In this document: one piece after another, positions 502 through 21,312 of the stretch
Position numbering within the stretch: the first letter of the stretch is position 1
How the letters are laid out: each line of letters starts with the position of its first letter
Origin: a virus
Strand: one strand, 5' to 3'
IMG/VR virus record: IMGVR_UViG_3300044614_001201
Coordinates: 1 to 22,618 of that record
Length of the DNA stretch: 22,618 bases
Made by a program: the position numbers and the translations under genes
The notes under the pieces: generated by a model
The model's database searches: none
What the model saw: the letters and a program-made list of their open reading frames with translations, nothing else
Told to the model about the DNA's origin: nothing

Positions 502-708
502 TTACTCCGTAATCATAGCATCCCCTTCCCCACTAGTCAAGGGTGATGAAGATTCTTTATGTTTTGAAAAGATAACCATAAATTTCTCAAATTCATTCGG
601 ATCTTCAATGGACTTGTTTAAAGTCACATCGGGATGATCTAAAGGAAAATCGTAAAGTGGTGGTGACTCTTGTAATTCATGTTCGTATCTGGGAAATTCT
701 TCTTCCAT
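502..708 (-). CDS. Small acidic unknown protein (68 aa)
   Basis: An acidic, proline-rich 68-residue protein (begins MEEEFPRYEHELQESPPLYD). The frame could start further upstream at 735, but that would overlap the previous gene by 25 bases. The ATG at 708 lies two bases after that gene's stop and has GAGAGG about eight bases upstream, so I chose 708. The acidic N-terminus, a central helix candidate (DPNEFEKFMVIFSKH) and a Ser/Gly-rich tail suggest a partly disordered small protein. No domain recognised. Confidence 0.65.
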   Translation of the reverse strand: MEEEFPRYEHELQESPPLYDFPLDHPDVTLNKSIEDPNEFEKFMVIFSKHKESSSPLTSGEGDAMITE

Positions 709-710
709 TA

Positions 711-1385
711 TTAGTACCTCTCTAGATCTAACCACTGTGATGTATGTGGAATTGATTGTGAAATTTGATAGTGTTTAGGTTTCAATGTGATTTTAATATC
801 ACCAGCAATAACATAACTAGTTTCTGTGGTATCTTGATTTAATTCCATATCAACTTTCAATGGTGATGGGAACATCAATAAACTACCTTCTGTTGGTGGT
901 ATCGCATATCCAACACAATTATATTTGTTTATATTTTTAAACATACCACCATCATTTGAAAAGTTAAATATTCCTTCAAAAAGTTCATTCTGATAATTTT
1001 CGGATTCAAAGCAAACTACATCTGGTTTATCTTTAGAAGTTTTTAAGTAATATCTAAAAGAAAGATCACTAGACCTATTATTATGGTGATTGGTCCATCC
1101 AGTGTTAGTATCATAAGATTCTACCCAAGAACGAACGACGTGCAAATTTACAACGTCTGGATTAACACCAAGAAGAATTAAATAATTTTCTATAGAATTT
1201 TTAAGAGATTTAAAAAATTCTAGATACTTAACATTTAAGTGTAAAAAATATAGATCGGGAAGACTATTATCTCTTTGTCTTTCCCTTATTAATTTAAGTT
1301 CTTCAAAATTATTTGATTTAAACTCTTCGTGAGATTCAAATAAATCTTGCCCAATTACAATGGGAAAAATTTGATGTACTTTCAT
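711..1385 (-). CDS. 2OG-Fe(II) oxygenase-like protein, probably catalytically dead
   Basis: A 224-residue protein clearly paralogous to the neighbour at 1587-2255. Both begin MKVH(Q/E)(I/V)FPIV, share a D(I/L)SF(C/R)YY strand and share YVIAGDIK near the end. In the neighbour, this fold carries the 2OG-Fe(II) dioxygenase ligands. Here the N-terminal cluster reads NHHNNRSSD (H100, H101), but the distal metal histidine is replaced in FPSPLKVD and the 2OG-binding arginine is replaced by serine (TETSYVIAGD). Metal- and cosubstrate-dependent chemistry is therefore unlikely. A structural or binding role in the virion would fit its place after the baseplate genes, but this is inference. The pair flanks a 58-residue gene. 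Confidence 0.7.
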   Translation of the reverse strand: MKVHQIFPIVIGQDLFESHEEFKSNNFEELKLIRERQRDNSLPDLYFLHLNVKYLEFFKSLKNSIENYLILLGVNPDVVNLHVVRSWVESYDTNTGWTNHHNNRSSDLSFRYYLKTSKDKPDVVCFESENYQNELFEGIFNFSNDGGMFKNINKYNCVGYAIPPTEGSLLMFPSPLKVDMELNQDTTETSYVIAGDIKITLKPKHYQISQSIPHTSQWLDLERY

Positions 1386-1397
1386 TAGTTTTCTTTT

Positions 1398-1574
1398 TTA
1401 ACCTCTAACGTCATAATTATAACCTGAAATTGAATATTGTTGAGAACTTCCTGGATAATCTGGAGTAACTGATTTAACAATATAATCAAATGCCGCAGAT
1501 TTTGTTCCATTAACAGAACCATCTTGGCAATTTGGTTTAAAATTAGGTTCCCATCCTGTGGTATCTATAGCCAT
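1398..1574 (-). CDS. Small protein with a DYPG tail motif (58 aa)
   Basis: A 58-codon frame from ATG at 1574 to TAA at 1398 fills the gap between the two oxygenase-like paralogues, leaving 12 bases on each side. GGAGAAA lies about six bases before the start. The protein (begins MAIDTTGWEPNFKPN, ends GYNYDVRG) contains TPDYPGSSQQYSI. This resembles the C-terminal TPSDYPGDNSEYNI of the structural protein at 2257-3045. The shared tail suggests a related virion-associated peptide or a detached tail domain. No function is known to me. Confidence 0.7.
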   Translation of the reverse strand: MAIDTTGWEPNFKPNCQDGSVNGTKSAAFDYIVKSVTPDYPGSSQQYSISGYNYDVRG

Positions 1575-1586
1575 TATTATTTCTCC

Positions 1587-2255
1587 TTAAAATGAAATCC
1601 AAAGTTTTGGGTTAGGCATACTTTGATGATGAAGATTATATTCTTCCTTTAAACATAATTTAATATCTCCAGCAATAACATATCTATCACTTAGATTATC
1701 TCTCTTTAAAGTAGAATGCATTAAACTGCTTGGAAACAATACAACCGTTCCTTCATGGGGAGTTATTGTATAATGTTCGCAATTATATCTATTAAATTTT
1801 TTTAATAGATTAAAACGATCCCCCGTTTCAAACATTCCTTTAGAAAGTTCATTTAAATTATTTGTATTGTGAACGCAAAATTTATCTGAGGATTCGTCAG
1901 ATTGAATATAATAACAAAAAGAAATATCTGCTCCATTATGTATATGAGGTTTAAGTTGAGGAATATCTTCATTGTGATACCCAACCCATGCCTTTGTAAT
2001 ATTAATATCTAGTTTTTCGTGTTGAATTTCTAGAAGATCAAGATACTTGCGAACACATTTAACTAATGAGTTAAAAAGTGGATAGTAATCTTTATTTAAA
2101 TGAAGAGAACATCTTCCAGAATTTTCTGGTGTTTCATTCTCATATCCATTAAACCATAATGTTTTTAGTTCGTTGAAATATTTTTCTTTAAATTCATCAT
2201 GAATATCAATAGTGTCTTGTGCGACTACTATTGGAAAGACCTCATGCACCTTCAT
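1587..2255 (-). CDS. 2OG-Fe(II) oxygenase-like protein with intact active-site motifs
   Basis: A 222-residue protein with the layout of the phage 2OG-Fe(II) oxygenase superfamily: a histidine cluster PHIHNGAD (H104, H106, D110), a following strand (DISFCYYI), then FPSSLMHST with distal H180 and R191 eleven residues later (DRYVIAGDI). H180 and R191 match the positions of the distal metal ligand and the arginine that holds 2-oxoglutarate. Which of H104, H106 and D110 bind iron cannot be decided by reading. It starts one base after the stop of the structural gene at 2257-3045 (TAATATG), so translation is probably coupled. The substrate is unknown; tail-operon placement suggests protein modification or a virion role. 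Confidence 0.75.
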   Translation of the reverse strand: MKVHEVFPIVVAQDTIDIHDEFKEKYFNELKTLWFNGYENETPENSGRCSLHLNKDYYPLFNSLVKCVRKYLDLLEIQHEKLDINITKAWVGYHNEDIPQLKPHIHNGADISFCYYIQSDESSDKFCVHNTNNLNELSKGMFETGDRFNLLKKFNRYNCEHYTITPHEGTVVLFPSSLMHSTLKRDNLSDRYVIAGDIKLCLKEEYNLHHQSMPNPKLWISF

Positions 2256-2256
2256 A

Positions 2257-3045
2257 TTATTTGTTTATGTTATATTCACTATTATCTCCTGGATAATCAC
2301 TAGGTGTCAACCCTTTATATTCCGGAATCAGTCTTTCACCATCTAATCTTTCTCCAAAGATCATATAATGACAGTGAATTGGCATACCACCTTTTGCTTG
2401 AAGATAAATTCTATTTTCATCGATTCTTTTAACAATTACATCTTGATGCGCCCCAATTTCCGTCAATGAAACTGTAATGGAGTCAATATCTACAAACTCT
2501 TTCCAGTATTGTGGTAGTTCAATATAGTTTTTATTTTTAACCTTTCCCCTAAAATAGACATCATTAGATGGACCTTCTGGGCAAGTATGCCTTAGTCTCC
2601 AACCTTCTTTAATTGGGTGAGGAATGTCAAAGTTTTTCTTTGCTGAAAGTCTATGCACACCACAAAATGAAAGCACATCACCTTGAGCAACTATATTTCC
2701 ACCTGCATTAATATTTCCACCTGCTACAATGCCCAAATTTACATCAAGAAAATTAAAAACAAAGGCATTTCCCCTAACACAAAGTGAATATGGAGAATGA
2801 TTAAATGCACCACAAGCAACAAGAACACCTGGAATAAATGGTGGTGGTGAATCTGAATTGGTCATTGGACCAACCATCAAAGATGCCTGAATTGTAGGAA
2901 AGGGAATCGGATTTCCAACAATCATAGGAGATTCTATGAATGCAGAACCTCTAATTTCTGTTGGACCAATTCCTAATGAAAGTGGCAATCCAACACCACA
3001 AAAAATTCTTTTGCCTACAGCAATATCATCAAATTTAAAAGACAT
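2257..3045 (-). CDS. Putative virion structural (tail) protein
   Basis: A 262-residue protein. Residues 1-125 are glycine- and proline-rich beta repeats (GLPLSLGIGPTEIRG; GGNINAGGNIVAQGDV), suggesting a fibrous or beta-helical part. Residues about 135-235 contain a module beginning FDIPHPIKEGWRLRHTCPEG and including VYFRGKV, IELPQYW and MIFGERLDGE. I recall this module from tail fibre and other structural proteins of many phages. The tail ends TPSDYPGDNSEYNI. The start overlaps the previous stop by one base (TAATG) with an AGGA just upstream. Its place after gp5 and the spike-like protein supports a baseplate or tail role. The exact position in the virion is unknown. Confidence 0.65.
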   Translation of the reverse strand: MSFKFDDIAVGKRIFCGVGLPLSLGIGPTEIRGSAFIESPMIVGNPIPFPTIQASLMVGPMTNSDSPPPFIPGVLVACGAFNHSPYSLCVRGNAFVFNFLDVNLGIVAGGNINAGGNIVAQGDVLSFCGVHRLSAKKNFDIPHPIKEGWRLRHTCPEGPSNDVYFRGKVKNKNYIELPQYWKEFVDIDSITVSLTEIGAHQDVIVKRIDENRIYLQAKGGMPIHCHYMIFGERLDGERLIPEYKGLTPSDYPGDNSEYNINK

Positions 3046-3632
3046 TATCCTAACCTCGTATTTTCTCTTATTTCAACTGTCGAAGGATATTTGGACTTTT
3101 TAAGTTTGGTTGCCCCAGTAGCACAGTCCGCAAGACCAGCAAACATTTCTAAAGTACCATCACCCACAACCTGGAGAACACCGGAGCAGAAGAATCTAGC
3201 AACAGCAGATCCATTCATCTCAATGTTTTTTGCCTTGACTTCAAATTTTTCATCAGCTTCAAAACTGATTACTCCATTCTTATTATTTTTACCAAGAGCA
3301 ATACCTTGGATATTCTCTGCCTCCATTATGATTCTACCTTTATGCGCTTTGATGAATATATCACCGCGAAGTGCTTCTAATACAAGCGCATTTGTATCAT
3401 CACTGACATCATCTCCAGTTTTTATTTGAGTGACGCCAGGAGCACGCATTATCGTCCATCCTGGTCTTGTCGCATCGGAATCCATTTGGACATAATGAAG
3501 TTCATCATATCCACTTCTTATTACATAACAAGATAAGACTTCATCATCAGATATGTGACCTCTACGAGTTTCACTATCTTTGGTGCCGTCTCTTACTGTT
3601 TGATAATTTTTTTTCTTGCCTTTTCCCGCCAT
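3045..3632 (-). CDS. Putative baseplate spike-like structural protein
   Basis: A 195-residue protein with a lysine-rich start (MAGKGKKKNYQTVRDGTKDS), then beta-rich sequence. Residues 85-160 alternate short strands (ALRGDIFIKAHKGRIIMEA; IAL; ISFEADEKFEVKAKNIEMNG) in the way seen in the C-terminal beta-prism or VgrG-like spikes that follow OB-fold hub proteins. It lies directly downstream of gp5, whose own C-terminus lacks such a spike, so it may supply the puncturing needle. That is inference from order and strand pattern. There is a 28-base gap after gp5 and no clear Shine-Dalgarno. Confidence 0.55.
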   Translation of the reverse strand: MAGKGKKKNYQTVRDGTKDSETRRGHISDDEVLSCYVIRSGYDELHYVQMDSDATRPGWTIMRAPGVTQIKTGDDVSDDTNALVLEALRGDIFIKAHKGRIIMEAENIQGIALGKNNKNGVISFEADEKFEVKAKNIEMNGSAVARFFCSGVLQVVGDGTLEMFAGLADCATGATKLKKSKYPSTVEIRENTRLG

Positions 3633-3660: not shown

Positions 3661-6117
3661 TTAGGATTGTTGGGATAAAGATATCTTTCCAACACAGTCT
3701 ACCACAGAAATTATTTTTGTTCCAGCTGGTGGTGGTGCCTCTGGATCAACTTGTATAACTTTAAATACAGGAATCAACTCTGCATTATATCCACTATCAC
3801 TATCAACAAATATTCTTGGTCTTGCATCAAATCCATTCGCAGTTTTTTCAATATTAACTCCGACCACTGCACCATTTCTTATAATGGGTTTAAGAACAGC
3901 ACCTCTATCTGGTTCTATTATGATAGTATCATTTTCAGTATAATTAAATCCAGGATCCTTAACATAAACATCTTCAAGTTCTAAAATAATCGGATATGCT
4001 GCTGGAGACAATTGATTAATTAGTTCTGGCGATAATTGAGCAATTAGTTCTGGTGATAATTGAGCAATTTCTTCGGGTGTTAATTCGGATAAATTATTAA
4101 AACGATTAAATGCATCCAAGGCACTTGGAGGTGCTGTAATTGTAATTGGTTGAGTTATTGGAAATTCTACTCCAGCAGGAATAGTTATAGTATTAGTTCT
4201 TACTGGTGATGGAACTTTAACAAAATCTCCAGGATTTAACTCAATAATAGTTCCTGGATTAACTGGAGGGAAATAAGTTCCATCGGCACCTTTTTTATAA
4301 GACTGCCCAGGTTTTTTCCAAACTCTACCAGATCCACCTTCAGATCCATTAGGTGCAATTAAGTAATCAGTTCCCGAGTCAATAATGGCAATATTTTCAA
4401 TACTCTTGATTGATTCTCCAGCACTATTTTTAGAAGTACTCTTACTCATAATGGGAACAGCTGCTGCACCCGTTCCTGTTCCACAAGAATCATTAATAGA
4501 AACGGTTGGATCTCCAGTAAATCCACTTCCACCACTAACTAGATCAACAGCAAGCACCTCACCAACTGCTCCAACAACCACATTTCCTATAGCACCACTG
4601 CCACCAGATCCAAAAATACTTAATGCTGGAGCACCACACTCAATCGGTCCAATGTTACAATCACTTGCAAGAGATGAAAGAGTACTACCAGCACCACCAA
4701 CTAATCCACCAATGTCAAGATTGCTTGGATTAAATGCTCCAGAAAGATCTGTTGCTGCTTGTGCTGCTGATTGACCGATTGATTGTGCTTGATTAAAAAC
4801 GGATTCAATGCTAACTGGTCCACCACGATTATCACCAGCGCCTTTCCATGTACTCCACTGATCTAATGTTTGGCAAGATAATTCTTCTTCACAACTGAAA
4901 AGACCAAAAATCTTTTTGATAATTGAAAGAATTTGACCTGCCAAATTAGCAGCTGCTCCTACAGTTTGAAGTAATGCATTGACTGGTTTTAAAATGGAAT
5001 CTATCAATCCAGAAATAAACCCAGCAACCTTCCCAACAATATCTGATGCAACACCTTCTGCCAAACAGATGGGGACATTGACTGCTTTATTAACTAAGTT
5101 TTTTATTTGATTTCCAACTAGTTCTAACAACCCTTGAATAATTTTATTGATAGCGCAAGAAAGAAGATCTAAAGTTTTATTCTGTGCTTCCTTTACTGCT
5201 GGTCTAAGATTTGGGAAAAACAGGAAGTGAGCATTTTTAACAGTATCATTAACTTTTTCTATAATTGATTTTCTAACTGCCTCTACAATATTTTTAATCT
5301 TTGATGTTACAAATGTGATCGCATCAGTAACAGCATTTTCAATTCTCTTTTGTATTTTATCAATACGACCTGTCAATTGGGTACTAAAATCTCCGCTGAG
5401 TTTTGTTAGGTTCTCAACTATCAAAATCAATTTTTCAATATCTGCCGAAATACCTTTAACATCATTCCTACCACATCTGGTAAGTTTTGCCATCGGGGTT
5501 GCTATATTACCATCTTTCTTCTGCTGCTCAGATGCCAGATCTTTTAATCCAGAAGTTGTACCTTCAACAGAACTAATTACACCCTTTTCTTGAACTTCAG
5601 TCGTTCCGGGTGGTTTTACTTGAACAGCTTTATTTCCTTCGTTTGATGTTTTAATATTTGTAACTGCTATTTTATTATCTACAGTGTATCCACTGAAGGG
5701 TAAAAATCCAATCTTAGGTATCTTTTTTTCTAATGATGTTTGTGCGTTATTACCAAGCACACCCATAATAACAGGTTGTTGAGCATCTTCACCATCAATA
5801 AAAAATCCAAATACAAATGATCCTTGACGAAGTTGTGCAGAAGTAGACGCACTAGCTCCACCAGATCCGGCAGTAACTGGATACATAACAGTTGCCCAGG
5901 GCAGTTCATCATCGCTCAAATCTTCAAGATTGGCGGTATGATACCCCATTATTCTCACTTTGTATCTTTCACCAAATCCAGGAATAGCATCCGTAGACGC
6001 TACTCTTCTACCGTTAATATTATCTCTCCACTTGGTTTCGTCAACAACTTGACCAATCCACCAAACGAAACCGTCTCTTCCTACAAAGTGTTTTTGAAAT
6101 AACTGTTCTTCAATCAT
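3661..6117 (-). CDS. 5: Baseplate hub protein gp5 (OB-fold; no lysozyme domain seen)
   Basis: An 818-residue protein. Residues 17-122 match the T4 gp5 N-terminal OB fold: FVWWIGQVVDE, RYKVRIMGYH, LPWATVMYPVT, then LRQGSFVFGFFIDG and QQPVIMGVLGN. The T4 lysozyme domain that should follow is not recognisable. Residues 210-410 are instead long amphipathic helices, with a Cys-containing segment (LFSCEEELSC) after them. Residues 495-600 and 715-790 contain glycine-rich beta units (SGGSGFTGDPTVSI; KDPGFNYTENDTIII; DSDSGYNAELIPVF). An octapeptide repeat lies at about 675-705. The start overlaps the end of cp12 by eight bases, so translation is probably coupled. With the gp27-like gene upstream it should form the central hub. 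Confidence 0.8.
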   Translation of the reverse strand: MIEEQLFQKHFVGRDGFVWWIGQVVDETKWRDNINGRRVASTDAIPGFGERYKVRIMGYHTANLEDLSDDELPWATVMYPVTAGSGGASASTSAQLRQGSFVFGFFIDGEDAQQPVIMGVLGNNAQTSLEKKIPKIGFLPFSGYTVDNKIAVTNIKTSNEGNKAVQVKPPGTTEVQEKGVISSVEGTTSGLKDLASEQQKKDGNIATPMAKLTRCGRNDVKGISADIEKLILIVENLTKLSGDFSTQLTGRIDKIQKRIENAVTDAITFVTSKIKNIVEAVRKSIIEKVNDTVKNAHFLFFPNLRPAVKEAQNKTLDLLSCAINKIIQGLLELVGNQIKNLVNKAVNVPICLAEGVASDIVGKVAGFISGLIDSILKPVNALLQTVGAAANLAGQILSIIKKIFGLFSCEEELSCQTLDQWSTWKGAGDNRGGPVSIESVFNQAQSIGQSAAQAATDLSGAFNPSNLDIGGLVGGAGSTLSSLASDCNIGPIECGAPALSIFGSGGSGAIGNVVVGAVGEVLAVDLVSGGSGFTGDPTVSINDSCGTGTGAAAVPIMSKSTSKNSAGESIKSIENIAIIDSGTDYLIAPNGSEGGSGRVWKKPGQSYKKGADGTYFPPVNPGTIIELNPGDFVKVPSPVRTNTITIPAGVEFPITQPITITAPPSALDAFNRFNNLSELTPEEIAQLSPELIAQLSPELINQLSPAAYPIILELEDVYVKDPGFNYTENDTIIIEPDRGAVLKPIIRNGAVVGVNIEKTANGFDARPRIFVDSDSGYNAELIPVFKVIQVDPEAPPPAGTKIISVVDCVGKISLSQQS
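4008..4084 (-). repeat. 24-base tandem repeat encoding an LSPELIAQ octapeptide
   Basis: About three copies of a 24-base unit occur in gp5. They encode LTPEEIAQ, LSPELIAQ and LSPELINQ, followed by a partial LSP. The DNA copies are nearly identical (gataattgagcaattagttc occurs almost unchanged in adjacent units), which points to recent slippage expansion. The peptide probably forms a helical linker between the hub's Pro/Thr-rich region and its C-terminal beta units. Confidence 0.8.
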
Positions 6118-6322: not shown

Positions 6323-7612
6323 TTAACTTACCTTACCTGAAAATGAATCTCTTACGAGAGTAAGACTTGTAAAAGTGTCTTTTGGAGTAATTCTATGACA
6401 TAAACTAGCAATCATATACTTTCCTTTAGTTTGCATATTTGGTTTTTTATTTTCAATTTTTGCAAGATCTGGGAAATCACACTCAATCATATCCCCCGCA
6501 TGAAGACTGAAATCTCCTGGAATCATAATATGAGTCTTAATGCTATATAGCTGATTATATCTCATAATTGATTGGACCATTGTGTTTGGTGCATCAAAAT
6601 TAGGATCTGTTGGTTTTGCTTTCCAATTTTTTAATTGCTCTTTAGCATCTTTTCCCGATGGTAGTGTTCCTAAATCTAATACGTGATTCATAAATCTAGT
6701 CGGAAGTTTAGTAAATTCTTTATCAACAAATAGAATATTATCGGCAGCGATTTCAATTTTAGATTTTTGATCATTCTCTAAAGAATAAGTTCTCACTTGA
6801 TAATCCATAGCATAAAAATCAAAGAAAATACTACGGTTATGATACATTCCCAATGACATGTTTTGCTGCAAATCTATATTCCTATCAATTTTTACATTGA
6901 TAATTTTTCCATCATATCCTTCTGGTGTTTTTGTGGAATTTGTATAAACATATTTTTTCTTTGGTTCTTGCTTTAAAAGAACATCAATTGATTTAAACTT
7001 AAATGCTTCACTTGTTTCATACATAAAATAACCTGCAGCACCACCAATCCCCTTTTCCGGAACTGCCTTTGATGCTAACCAAGTACAGACATATAATGGT
7101 TTTCTATCATTTCCTATAAAATTATAATTAACACCTGTCTTATCAATATCTAATTTCTTTTTAACTTGTAATCCTTTTGGATCGGTAAGTATTTTCCTAA
7201 CTGATTCTGAAATATCTCTTTCAAATCTAGTAACGACTCTTGATTGTTCATTCGCAATGAATTCTTTAGTGCAAAAATCTAACATATAAACATCATTTGA
7301 AGTTCCTGGTGATGAACTATTCACACGATTTACATATAAATCTAAATCAAGTTTATTTGGTTTAGATTGATTATCCTCGATAATCAACTTTACAAACTCA
7401 CCACCACGAATTGGAAGACCATCCAACAATCCTATCATTTCTTTTTGATTTGGTTCTAAACCACCAGATTCAGCAATAATAGCAGTTGCTGAAATTGTAT
7501 TTGAAAGTACATTTTCATAATATTTAATCTCAGGTGAAACCTGACTAATATCTTTTGACTTAACTTCAAACTTTTTTATATTGCCCGATAAGGCGGCTTC
7601 ATTACTTGCCAT
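6323..7612 (-). CDS. 27: Baseplate hub protein, gp27-like
   Basis: A 429-residue protein (T4 gp27 is about 390). The C-terminal part reads IMIPGDFSLHAGDMIECDFPD and then KGKYMIASLCHRI, ending SLTLVRDSFSG. This follows the pattern of gp27/gpD hub proteins, where a beta domain closes with 'kG-Y-I--v-H' and a final 'L-l-RD'. An N-terminal segment (GGEFVKLII, LYVNRV, VYMLDFCT) fits the tail-tube-like first domain. It lies between the tape-measure genes and gp5, the usual hub position, and overlaps the upstream stop by one base (TAATG). The assignment rests on pattern and position. Confidence 0.6.
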   Translation of the reverse strand: MASNEAALSGNIKKFEVKSKDISQVSPEIKYYENVLSNTISATAIIAESGGLEPNQKEMIGLLDGLPIRGGEFVKLIIEDNQSKPNKLDLDLYVNRVNSSSPGTSNDVYMLDFCTKEFIANEQSRVVTRFERDISESVRKILTDPKGLQVKKKLDIDKTGVNYNFIGNDRKPLYVCTWLASKAVPEKGIGGAAGYFMYETSEAFKFKSIDVLLKQEPKKKYVYTNSTKTPEGYDGKIINVKIDRNIDLQQNMSLGMYHNRSIFFDFYAMDYQVRTYSLENDQKSKIEIAADNILFVDKEFTKLPTRFMNHVLDLGTLPSGKDAKEQLKNWKAKPTDPNFDAPNTMVQSIMRYNQLYSIKTHIMIPGDFSLHAGDMIECDFPDLAKIENKKPNMQTKGKYMIASLCHRITPKDTFTSLTLVRDSFSGKVS

Positions 7613-10600
7613 TAGATTTTGTACATTGAAGATGAGATTAATTGTCTGGAGACCATTCCATAACTATTTACCATACCATCAACAAAAGATGGTTTATACC
7701 CACTACCATTCTTTCTTACTGGTTGTGCAGATTGTCCGCCAGGACTTTGGACAAGCATAATCATTCCATTTGATTTATCATAAGATGCTGTTTGACTTAA
7801 GTCGGGTATTGTTGATTTAATTGCAGGATCCCCAAGAACTTTGTAGTTCAATGCAAAGTCTGATATTTGTGCTGCTGGTGGAGCACCTGGAGCAGATCCA
7901 GAACCTGGCGCTGATAAATCTGTTCCAGATGGTGCTAAACCAGCACCTTTAAATTCAAAGTGTCCTCCGTGGCTTCCTGGATAATCATTAGCAACCCAAC
8001 CATAATTTCTACCATTCTTTCTAATCCAAGAATTAGAACCACCATGAATATCCATTGCAATTCCAGACATATGGAGTGATCCACTCGCTCCCCCAACTGC
8101 TCTATTTTTTTCTGGACTTCTCTTACTGCTTGAAACATCTGATGCTTTAACTTTTCCACCAGAATCTTTCATCATTTTATAGAAAGCTTCAGCAGCACCC
8201 TTACTAAAGACTACAGGTCTTCCTTGCTCATCTTTGGCACCTTGAATGGTATATCCAGGTCCAGTATCCCAAATACCTTTTGTGGAAACAATTCCACTTC
8301 CACCACCTCTACCACCTTTAGCTGCTGCAGGATCCCCAAGAACTTTATAGTTTGCTGCGAAATCTGATATTTGAACTCCTTCGGATGGTGCTGATGGGGC
8401 ACCTGGCGATCCCGAAGATCCTGGAGAAGATGCACCTGCAATTGATGGATCTGGTTGTATAGATCCACCGAAAGGAGATTCCTTATTATATTTTGATAAA
8501 GGATTGAATCTAGAAAGAACTGCTGATTTTGGCATTCCATTATCTCTTGGATTCGTTGCTGCTTCCCAATGCAGGTGAGGTCCACTAGAAAGTCCAGTGC
8601 TCCCCAGTGGACCCAAAATAGTTCCTTTCTTAATTTTTTGACCACGCTTAACATACGCGGGTTTATCCATGTGTGCATAAAAATGCCCAATTCCCGTATT
8701 ATCAATCCAATTGACCCAATTACCATAATTACCTTGATTTCCAGTTGCTTCAACAACACCATCGGTAAATGCTTGTAGTGGTTCTCCTCTTGTTCCCGAA
8801 ATATCAACACCCATATGCATTCCAGGAGACAATGCAAAATTTCGCATTCCCATATCTGATGTGACTTGATGATTTCCACCCATTGCTAGGAACGGAACTT
8901 TGTGGCGCTTCACTCCATTAACACCACCGCCTCCAGCAGATTTATATTTTGAAATATTAGCGTTAAACCTTGCAACAAAAGTCTTAGATGATGTGTTCTG
9001 CTGACTTCCTCCTGGAAGAGATGGCCAAGTTCCTCGTAATTTTGCAGATGCTGATAGAGGATCTTTTTGTGCATCTTTAACAAGTTGTGCCTCACCACCA
9101 GGATAAACACTTGCCATTAGCATCCTGGCAATTTTTGTTTGATTTTCTGGATTAAATTTATCTTTGTCTGGATTTAATCCAGAACTTTTTGCTCTTCCTA
9201 TAATAAATTCTGGCATTTGTTGCCATTTACCCATCGCTCCAGAACCACCTAAAGCATAACCTTTTTGCATTGCAGCTCTTCTAGCATCTGCAATGGTCAT
9301 ATTGCTCAATCCTGGAACGGTTGTTGAAGGATTGACAGAATCCCAACTTCCTTCACCACCAGAAATAGCTTCCAACATTGCCTTCACTTCTGGAGAAGCA
9401 TTGCCTGGAAGCATACCACCGCCTGCCCCACCAGCTGCTGGTTGATCTCCAGGTCCTCCTGGTGTAGGTTGCGCTTCTTCTTTCTTTTCCTGTAATAATT
9501 TAAATTGATTTTCTTGAGATTTTACATCAACGAATATTTTTCTCTTTGCCCAATCTGTTAAGTTCTTACTAAATTGTCCGATTATTCTTTTATTAAATCC
9601 TGGAACACTAAATTCATCATTTTTCAAAGCAATACCAATTGAGGAACCAATAGATTCTGCAATTGCATCTGTTCTTGGTTTAGATACTTTTTCGCCTAAA
9701 CTAATATCCAAACCAAGTTTCATTGCCTCACCGATGAATGGTATAGCACCATAAGTTGAAGAAAGATTTGCAAATCTCTTTGCACTCTCTTCATCTTTTA
9801 AAATGGTTCCTTTTGCTTTTTTCAGTGTTTGTGGAGATATTGCAGATGAACCAGTTGTTTTTCTTTGAATACTTGTAGATCTTGATAAAGTTCTTTTTGA
9901 TCCTCCACCTCTGATATTTACTTGACCGCCATATGCTCTTCCTTCAATTGGATTTTCCTTATCTGCTTCAGCAACTCTTCCAGTTAAATTTTTATAAATT
10001 TCTTTGCCAGCCCAATCACCAATACCAGCACCGACAGATCCGCCTATAAAAGCACCAAGTCCTGGTATTGGAATCAAACCTTGTCCTATTGCGCCACCAA
10101 TACCAGCACCTAGAGTTGCTCCTATTGCTCCAACTATAGCACGATCTAGTTTTTCTCCCAGTGCTAAATCAATACCGATACCAATTAAAGCACCAACTAC
10201 AGGAACTCTTTTGAAAATTTTAGAGAATGATTTAAATCTTTTTATAATATTTGCTGTCGTTTTTACTCCACCTTTACCGGCAATAGATAATACCGCTCTT
10301 GTTCCCGCTCTACCAACACCCCTCTTTAAAATATTTCCAGCTGCACCAGCAACCCCCCTAGCACCTTGCTCTAATACCTCACCTCCAACCCTTTTAACTA
10401 AGGATGCTAGTGGTCCTTTAACCAGATTAAAGATTACTCCACCTGCTTTTTTGAATAAATTTCCAGCAATTCTCCCAGCTTTGAATAATAATTTACCAAT
10501 CAGTTTGGCGGGAGGTCCAATAATTTTTGAAGTTAATTTTGCAATAAACTTAACTTGTTTAGGAAATACTGTCGTTAATGTAATAATTCCAAGTTTTAAT

Positions 10601-11298
10601 ACATTCCAAGTATTAGTGAGACCTTCACCAATTTCCTTAAACATCCTAAGAATCGTTGGACCATTCTTAAGCAAAATATTAAGTAGACTTCCTATTAAAA
10701 CATTTAATAGGAATCTCTTAATCATATCAAAGAGACCAACCTTAGGTGCAGTTATTCCTAACTTTTTCTTCTTCTTAGTATCTTTCTTTTCTTCTAAATT
10801 TTTTTCTTGCTCCTCTGCCTTTTTCTTTCTACCTTCTATAAAGTTGAGACGACTTTCTTGTTTTTGATTAAGAAGTTTCTGTGTTGATATCTCTTTAACT
10901 TTTATAAAATCAACTTTTATTTCATCAAGTTCTTTTAAAATTTCTCCACGAACACCATCAGATTTAACTAATGCTCCACCTGGTTTCTTATCTTCAGTCT
11001 TAACTAAAGCACCAGATGAACTTTTAACTATTGCTGAAGATTTTCTTAAAACTAATGCACCACCTTTCTTAATTTTATTTCCAAAAGTTTTAGTTTTGGA
11101 AAGAAGTTTTTCAGTAGATATTGTTTTTTTCTTTCCTTTTGCTTTTTCTTTTACAATTGATAAGGCTTTGTCTTTTGCGCTATCAATTGCTTTTTGTTTA
11201 AAAGTATTTGCAATTGCCCCACGAATACCTCCTCCAGCAGCTGCACGAGCGCCACCAGACAAAAGCATTCTTCCTGCAGTTAGAAGTAAAGGAAGCAT
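7612..11298 (-). CDS. Tape-measure-like tail protein with three cell-wall hydrolase domains
   Basis: A 1228-residue protein. Residues 30-185 are Lys-rich helices. Residues 186-211 (FDMIKRFLLNVLIGSLLNIL) match the preceding large tail protein. Residues 360-445 are Gly/Ala/Ile-rich hydrophobic helices, duplicated in degenerate form at 515-590. Residues 638-790 look like a lysozyme or muramidase fold (ISGGEGSWDSVN with E649; GAMGKWQQMP; NPENQTKIARMLM). Residues 808-915 are an M23 endopeptidase (HMGVD with H828 and D832; FYAHMD with H876; GPHLHWE with H908 and H910). Residues 1065-1117 are an M15-like peptidase (SLHMSGIAMDI with H1076 and D1083; HGGHFEF with H1113). It probably sets tail length and cuts peptidoglycan during DNA entry. 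Pro/Ser/Gly linkers separate the domains, and two ISDFA motifs lie in or beside them. Confidence 0.75.
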   Translation of the reverse strand: MLPLLLTAGRMLLSGGARAAAGGGIRGAIANTFKQKAIDSAKDKALSIVKEKAKGKKKTISTEKLLSKTKTFGNKIKKGGALVLRKSSAIVKSSSGALVKTEDKKPGGALVKSDGVRGEILKELDEIKVDFIKVKEISTQKLLNQKQESRLNFIEGRKKKAEEQEKNLEEKKDTKKKKKLGITAPKVGLFDMIKRFLLNVLIGSLLNILLKNGPTILRMFKEIGEGLTNTWNVLKLGIITLTTVFPKQVKFIAKLTSKIIGPPAKLIGKLLFKAGRIAGNLFKKAGGVIFNLVKGPLASLVKRVGGEVLEQGARGVAGAAGNILKRGVGRAGTRAVLSIAGKGGVKTTANIIKRFKSFSKIFKRVPVVGALIGIGIDLALGEKLDRAIVGAIGATLGAGIGGAIGQGLIPIPGLGAFIGGSVGAGIGDWAGKEIYKNLTGRVAEADKENPIEGRAYGGQVNIRGGGSKRTLSRSTSIQRKTTGSSAISPQTLKKAKGTILKDEESAKRFANLSSTYGAIPFIGEAMKLGLDISLGEKVSKPRTDAIAESIGSSIGIALKNDEFSVPGFNKRIIGQFSKNLTDWAKRKIFVDVKSQENQFKLLQEKKEEAQPTPGGPGDQPAAGGAGGGMLPGNASPEVKAMLEAISGGEGSWDSVNPSTTVPGLSNMTIADARRAAMQKGYALGGSGAMGKWQQMPEFIIGRAKSSGLNPDKDKFNPENQTKIARMLMASVYPGGEAQLVKDAQKDPLSASAKLRGTWPSLPGGSQQNTSSKTFVARFNANISKYKSAGGGGVNGVKRHKVPFLAMGGNHQVTSDMGMRNFALSPGMHMGVDISGTRGEPLQAFTDGVVEATGNQGNYGNWVNWIDNTGIGHFYAHMDKPAYVKRGQKIKKGTILGPLGSTGLSSGPHLHWEAATNPRDNGMPKSAVLSRFNPLSKYNKESPFGGSIQPDPSIAGASSPGSSGSPGAPSAPSEGVQISDFAANYKVLGDPAAAKGGRGGGSGIVSTKGIWDTGPGYTIQGAKDEQGRPVVFSKGAAEAFYKMMKDSGGKVKASDVSSSKRSPEKNRAVGGASGSLHMSGIAMDIHGGSNSWIRKNGRNYGWVANDYPGSHGGHFEFKGAGLAPSGTDLSAPGSGSAPGAPPAAQISDFALNYKVLGDPAIKSTIPDLSQTASYDKSNGMIMLVQSPGGQSAQPVRKNGSGYKPSFVDGMVNSYGMVSRQLISSSMYKI
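7822..7866 (-). repeat. ISDFA motif, copy C (in 1228-aa tail protein)
   Basis: Encodes ISDFALNYKVLGDPA, near the C-terminus of the tape-measure-like protein and directly after a Pro/Ala/Gly linker. It differs from the other two copies by A to L at one position. Confidence 0.9.
8326..8370 (-). repeat. ISDFA motif, copy B (in 1228-aa tail protein)
   Basis: Encodes ISDFAANYKVLGDPA between the M23 and M15 domains, after a Ser/Pro/Gly linker (residues 951-974). It is identical in protein to the copy in the neighbouring 818-aa gene, with several synonymous base differences. Confidence 0.9.
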
Positions 11299-20211: not shown

Positions 20212-20807
20212 TTTTCTCCTACAACTACTTCTTTTAGTATTTTTTTGTATCGGAATACATCTGTATTTAGAAAGGGTGAGTATTTTTTCATCCTCATTGA
20301 TGTGAACTCCCAGATAGGATCTTTCAGTTTTACGTCAAAATCTTTCTTGTATGCAAGAATCCTATCAAGAATTAACATTGTCTCTATGGAGACTGTACCT
20401 TCTAAATGAAGTTTAAGAATCTTCGGGTGCCTATTTCCATCAATCTTAAACATATCATCAAAATTTTTTGAGGAAAAAATAGATCCAACCTCTTCTTTAA
20501 ACAAGTAAGAAAGAGATTGGATCCTACGCTGCCATTCTGTATAACGCAATTCACCTTCTTTGATAATTTCTCCAATCCATAATGATTGGGGATCATTACA
20601 AGAGACGAAATTTGCAACAAAAAACTTTTCTATTTCATCATCAGTTTTGTTTCTTGCGATTTTTTCAAACCAAAAACGATCTTTACGATTATAAAAAGTT
20701 TTTATAGTTGCTCTACTTTTACCGCAGTATTTGTGGTAATCGTAACTGTTCTTGGTGAAGTGATTTTTAATCGCAAGATATACTTTATAAGCGTCAAAGG
20801 GCATCAT
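20208..20807 (-). CDS. 59: Helicase loader gp59
   Basis: A 199-residue basic protein (T4 gp59 is 217). It shows the family's features: MPFDAYKVYLAIKNHFTKNS at the start, TIKTFYNRKDRFWFEKIARN, FFVANFVSCNDPQSLWIGEI, and in the C-terminal half LHLEGTVSIETMLILDRILA with DPIWEFTSMRMKKYSPFLN. In T4, gp59 binds gp32-coated forked DNA and loads the gp41 helicase. The start overlaps the previous stop by 14 bases with two candidate ATGs (20807, 20804), and it is tightly coupled with the DUF1825 gene. Its place between gp33 and gp32 matches T4. Confidence 0.85.
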   Translation of the reverse strand: MMPFDAYKVYLAIKNHFTKNSYDYHKYCGKSRATIKTFYNRKDRFWFEKIARNKTDDEIEKFFVANFVSCNDPQSLWIGEIIKEGELRYTEWQRRIQSLSYLFKEEVGSIFSSKNFDDMFKIDGNRHPKILKLHLEGTVSIETMLILDRILAYKKDFDVKLKDPIWEFTSMRMKKYSPFLNTDVFRYKKILKEVVVGEK

Positions 20808-21312
20808 TCAAATCAAAATTAAAGGCAATAATAGTTTTTCTAGTATTCGTAAAGTTTTTTGGAGACTCGTGAAATACGCTTGATTTAAAAATTAACAAAT
20901 CTCCTTCATTAGCTCTTGGTGTTACTTTCTTACCAGTTACGGGATCTACTAGCACTGTTCTCAATAGTCTAGTTTTTAGTTCAACATAATATATGCACGC
21001 TATAGTGCTATCGGGATGATTGTGAAGTGCGTGATGCGATCCTGAGTTTGGTTCATATTGATTAAACCAATAATTGAGGATAATTGGTTTTTTCTTATAT
21101 TTGTTGTCAATAAATTTTAAAAAGCGATCCTTATCACGATCTGAAAACCCAAAGTCAAACCAGTTAGTTTCAAAAACATTCCAGTCCGTTTTACTTATGT
21201 TGTAATCAAATGAATACTTATGAGTTAGTATTTTTGACAGGATCTTTTCTTTTTGTTTTTTATGATCTTTTACTTTAAAAATGTAAAAATTTTTTTCACT
21301 AAAAAACATCAT
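20794..21312 (-). CDS. 2OG-Fe(II) oxygenase-like protein
   Basis: A 172-residue protein. The C-terminal half has the jelly-roll 2OG-Fe(II) signature: HHALHNHPDSTIACIYYVEL (H97 and H99), the loop EGDLLIFKSSVFHESPKN with distal H148, and R158 ten residues later (NTRKTIIAFNFD). It resembles the short CHP02466-type phage oxygenases more than the pair in the tail operon. The substrate is unknown; candidates are DNA bases or host or phage proteins. The N-terminal 45 residues are Lys-rich. It is the only gene in this operon with a real upstream gap (56 bases), which holds an inverted repeat and no good Shine-Dalgarno. Confidence 0.75.
   Translation of the reverse strand: MMFFSEKNFYIFKVKDHKKQKEKILSKILTHKYSFDYNISKTDWNVFETNWFDFGFSDRDKDRFLKFIDNKYKKKPIILNYWFNQYEPNSGSHHALHNHPDSTIACIYYVELKTRLLRTVLVDPVTGKKVTPRANEGDLLIFKSSVFHESPKNFTNTRKTIIAFNFDLNDAL

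Follow-up and report, generated by a model that had tools for sequence, protein, structure and literature searches.

Among the genes that terminate the minus-strand baseplate operon of a marine cyanophage-like virus is one, here called A, whose product is probably a PF13759 protein under selection that no longer performs canonical 2OG/Fe catalysis and that most likely owes its retention to a non-catalytic role, for instance in binding or scaffolding. A second gene of the same operon, B, encodes a relative in which the expected active-site residues are complete. The window, by which we mean the whole stretch of DNA analyzed, is the complete 22,618-base virus record IMGVR_UViG_3300044614_001201; the genes recognized in it (baseplate hub/tail lysozyme, tail tube, baseplate cap, ssDNA-binding protein and helicase loader) are those of a T4-like phage. 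X, Y, B, a 58-codon open reading frame (z) and A together form the end of the operon (Table 1). In phage S-SCSM2R the gene at the place of X is annotated 'membrane puncturing device'.

Table 1. Features of the window that bear on the A and B genes.
Feature	Position	Strand	Remarks
77-codon ORF	502..735	-	overlaps the 3' end of A; also in L001/L002, 70% aa identity
A	711..1385	-	divergent PF13759/phrog_81 protein, 224 aa
z (58-codon ORF)	1398..1574	-	between B and A
B	1587..2255	-	PF13759/phrog_81 2OG-Fe(II) oxygenase, complete HxH...H...R set, 222 aa
Y	2257..3045	-	262 aa, phrog_17490 (unknown function), C-terminal NFDIPHP domain
X	3045..3632	-	195 aa, phrog_26118, between hub gene and Y
Baseplate hub subunit / gp5-like tail lysozyme	3661..6117	-	phrog_1922, E 1.8e-118
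Third PF13759 gene	20794..21312	-	172 aa, overlaps helicase-loader gene

A and B are 36% identical over 222 aligned positions (BLASTP, E 4e-46) and have in common an MKVH..FPIV start and the sequence YVIAGDIK, as expected of the two paralogues with shared start and end that a preliminary description had proposed. Both are assigned to phrog_81, '2OG-Fe(II) oxygenase'. Against the PF13759 profile (cut-off 27 bits) B scores 46.5 and the A protein of the window 24.4; because this falls below the cut-off we file the latter as a divergent homologue and not as a full member of the family. The A proteins of two further contigs, L001 and L002, score 30.4 and 30.2 bits. B carries H104-I-H106, H180 and R191, that is, the HxH motif, the distal His and the 2OG-binding Arg. 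The equivalent residues of A are H101-N102-N103, V178 (followed by D179) and S190, so that the Val and Ser reported earlier opposite His180 and Arg191 are indeed there. The histidine cluster, which had also been described as altered, is altered in part: the second His is lost (N103) and the first (H101) is retained.

Both proteins are predicted to adopt the 2OG-Fe(II) oxygenase (double-stranded beta-helix) fold. AlphaFold models of moderate confidence (pLDDT 75.7 and pTM 0.79 for A, pLDDT 79.5 for B) find their best matches in the PF13759-like structures 2rg4 and 3bvc, with Z scores of 16.7 and 16.2 for A and 18.2 and 18.1 for B; against 2rg4 the rmsd is 4.0 over 180 aligned residues for A and 3.1 over 182 for B. 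Prolyl hydroxylases and other 2OG enzymes are the next structural matches. These matches rule out a different fold, which had been named as a possible objection. A and B thus share family and predicted fold with PF13759 (2OG-FeII_Oxy_5; TIGR02466-like) and phrog_81, and in the HxH...H-(11)-R layout, spacing included, B agrees with 2rg4 and 3bvc; the metal-binding residues of the family are assigned here by homology. A sequence search of the PDB with B returned one chance hit and nothing else.

Relatives gathered from IMG/VR and from phage isolates amount to 60 distinct proteins. Each of the 57 distinct homologues that fall outside the A clade keeps all four of H104, H106, H180 and R191, which places the losses seen in A far from chance. 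Within the clade, which effectively amounts to two independent sequences (the window, and L001 with L002), the four residues read HNVS in the window and HHVR in L001 and L002. The latter are 99.6% identical to each other at the amino acid level and, at 82–83%, are the only known close relatives of A: scans with different peptide patterns and a DNA motif, including a search of IMG/VR for FPSPLKVD, yielded these two alone, and no relatives of A were found in bacterial genomes. The best match among phage isolates, S-SCSM2R, has one intact copy.

The distal His is absent from all three A sequences, and since its loss is common to A, L001 and L002 it is inherited. By comparison, the window alone lacks the second His and the Arg: N103 is encoded by a codon two bases away from the His codon of L001, and S190 by AGT, one base from the CGT of R190 in L001 and L002. 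The degeneration extends beyond these ligands. A keeps 34 of 53 positions that are invariant in the other family members, mostly in the core; 14 of the 53, among them W34, G92, Y93, H94, N107, H180 and H210, are missing from each A sequence examined, and a further five, such as H106 and R191, are lost in the window copy alone. The motifs WFNGY..PE.SG and GYH are gone.

In the 2OG fold, metal binding can survive replacement of the distal ligand, PHF2 being an example. D179, next to V178, might conceivably serve as a ligand, and A might still be an active metalloenzyme whose metal site has changed (to H101/H103 plus D179, for example, or to an incomplete triad), perhaps along with its reaction. 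L001 and L002 keep both H-N-H and the 2OG-binding Arg, and D179 is conserved throughout the three A sequences; its distance from the Arg position, 11 residues, is exactly that of the distal His from the Arg in B, 2rg4 and 3bvc. JmjC proteins likewise show substitutions of the distal ligand, and the triad of Epe1 has a natural His-to-Tyr change (PMC7192584). Whether V178 or D179 occupies the place of the distal His depends on the alignment, but V178 is favored by the alignment, which has no gaps from FPS onward, and by the strand register of the predicted models; H103 and R190 are gone from the window copy, and other residues surrounding the active site have been lost as well. We regard continued metalloenzyme activity as very unlikely. 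A related, and also unlikely, view is that in the A lineage as a whole the 2OG fold, encoded after a tail NFDIxHP-domain protein, became a non-catalytic part of the virion or of its assembly, or else took up a carboxylate ligand at the distal position (H-x-H...D, as in L001 and L002).

Purifying selection acts on the reading frame of A. A comparison of the window with L001 gives 44 synonymous differences at 141 sites and 48 nonsynonymous differences at 531 sites, which departs strongly from neutrality (Fisher p 4e-10). The resulting dN/dS of 0.24 is indistinguishable from that of Y (0.23, p 0.68) and of the hub gene, gp5 (0.20, p 0.25), in the same comparison. For B, compared with its counterpart in L003, dN/dS is 0.115; A is perhaps under somewhat weaker constraint than B, the difference being not significant (p 0.17). 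An intact frame with a dN/dS similar to that of its neighbors marks A as a maintained protein and not a decaying pseudogene. That A became redundant upon the arrival of B, its active site now eroding toward deletion, would account for the five additional invariant residues, including second His and Arg, lost in the window copy only, and for the gutting of the neighboring Z gene (see below). The selection data speak against such decay, as does the fact that the distal His is lost also in L001 and L002, fragments from which B is absent; we consider it unlikely.

The notion that the left-hand copy is a pseudoenzyme, conserved in its dead state, accordingly survives in part: loss of the distal His is inherited, shared with L001 and L002, and accompanied by purifying selection, but the second His and the Arg are missing only in the window. 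The ancestor of A lost the distal metal-binding His together with much of the invariant substrate and active-site surround (the WFNGY..PE.SG motif, GYH, N107 and H210) while keeping the core-strand residues; in the window copy the second His is gone as well, and so is the Arg that binds 2OG. Under the reading that we prefer, namely a selected protein without canonical catalysis, A, which occupies an accessory position where the baseplate-hub operon ends, would have been retained for binding or scaffolding. Structural reuse of the oxygenase fold by A is possible. We found no virion-proteomics paper naming a protein of the A or B type.

The preliminary description treated A and B as products of duplication. 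They are not strictly adjacent, z lying between them, and their phylogeny points elsewhere. A groups with its counterparts in L001 and L002 (support 100/100), and the stem of this clade, 2.84 changes per column in length, lies between two canonical subfamilies, while B groups with L003 and relatives (100/97). A thus appears on the tree, which is used for topology and in which the placement of the A clade involves a long branch, as a deep, fast-evolving lineage, with B nested elsewhere. In L001 and L002 the gene order is X-Y-Z-A, with no B on either fragment (32.6 and 44.2 kb). Other loci read X-Y-B or X-Y-Z-oxygenase, each with a single copy, and in these loci, which number dozens, the B type occurs without A. 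A and B are found together in the window only.

Y is a mosaic: its first ~105 columns are mostly 96–100% identical at the nucleotide level to L001, and toward its 3' end the identity is 83–92% with B-type phages and about 60% with L001. In L001 and L002, A is preceded by Z, a gene for 215 aa, to which the C-terminal end of z corresponds; in the final 72 nt of Z, z and the Z of L001 are 94% identical at the nucleotide level, and z is an in-frame remnant of Z, apparently without its NFDIxHP domain. The tree and the Y mosaic together speak against local tandem duplication. They also suggest that recombination probably brought B to its place next to A, the simplest account of both: a segment comprising the 3' end of Y and B, derived from a B-type phage, would have recombined into a genome already possessing A, and the Z gene between B and A would have been cut to 58 codons.

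The arrangement is known from one assembled metagenomic contig, and its B/z junction occurs in no other viral contig. Together with the position of the identity switch in Y, which falls inside a conserved domain, this is what would be seen if the assembly had joined an A-type and a B-type phage through the NFDIxHP domain. Such a chimera would need two independent junctions, at Y/B and at B-z-A; moreover, z is in frame with a start of its own and its 5' end is not identical to the Z of L001. T4-like phages recombine freely, which also counts against an artifact. We judge a chimera distinctly unlikely; it would concern the arrangement only and is compatible with any reading of A.

The separate occurrence of A and B, together with the apparent import of B by recombination, leaves the suggestion of a catalytic/pseudoenzyme pair, perhaps a heterodimer, unsupported. 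The precedent for such a pair is fungal TlxI/TlxJ (PDB 7VBQ), in which TlxI, a subunit lacking the 2OG-binding Arg, stimulates its catalytic partner (PMC12141560). The likeness lies in a degenerate subunit without this Arg (as in the window copy of A) beside an active paralogue (as B probably is) within one gene cluster (PMC12141560); A and B share one operon in the window, and 7vbq is among the structural matches of B. Unlike TlxI and TlxJ, A and B do not form an obligate pair when genomes are compared, a complete and a degenerate copy co-occurring in the window and nowhere else. Two contigs carry A but no B, and every other locus examined has B but no A, so that the relatives of B must function without A; the A proteins of L001 and L002 retain the Arg; and B probably reached its position by recombination. 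These points speak against a heterodimer, which we rate as highly improbable.

Both A and B are accessory genes of the baseplate operon. Of 100 oxygenase ORFs (64 distinct neighborhoods), 98 begin within 12 nt of the end of a preceding Y/Z-type gene, the A gene of the window being counted as following the Z remnant. In the two exceptions (L038, 920–1579; L039, 3810–4469) a B-type oxygenase has moved away from Y/Z to a place between unrelated genes. The gene preceding the oxygenase has a conserved C-terminal domain, NFDIxHP...RLRHxCxEGP, and belongs to phrog_17490 (Y of the window and loci L003–L104). The NFDIxHP domain is also present in Flavobacterium phages. That the oxygenase gene is accessory follows from the isolates Bellamy, S-SM2, S-SCSM1 and SynMITS9220M01, which have X-Y-Z and no annotated oxygenase at that site. 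From its residues B is a likely active oxygenase, and since it starts within 12 nt of a gene for an NFDIxHP-domain protein in nearly all loci, it plausibly hydroxylates this co-encoded tail protein; the NFDIxHP-domain protein is possibly a substrate or a partner of the oxygenase.

The PF13759 family is represented in a baseplate operon, where almost every locus places it beside the same tail-type gene. One of its branches has lost canonical catalytic residues yet is under selection. The idea that some such proteins modify or build the virion becomes directly testable, and for annotation there is a warning: a hit to PF13759 does not necessarily denote an active enzyme. A is probably a modest example of an enzyme fold reused without its chemistry. 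Epe1 and JARID2, in which an altered 2OG fold is reused non-enzymatically (PMC7192584), resemble A in combining the 2OG-oxygenase fold with changed iron ligands; these JmjC pseudoenzymes differ in being eukaryotic chromatin proteins with no close homology to A, which belongs to a phage baseplate operon. The 2OG oxygenases of cyanophages have mostly been described as metabolic genes (PMC3037559, PMC9602691), S-SCSM1 alone having 24 2OG-Fe(II) oxygenases (PMC9602691), and in the cyanophage papers we found no description of degenerate 2OG oxygenase copies in the baseplate operon.

In L001 another 2OG-Fe(II) oxygenase, of the phrog_61 type (6831–7457), is located about 1.2 kb downstream of A. In the third PF13759 gene of the window the HxH motif, distal His and Arg are apparently intact. 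The window also encodes, on the minus strand at 7612–11298, a tail protein of 1228 aa in which M23 and M15 peptidase domains are both present.
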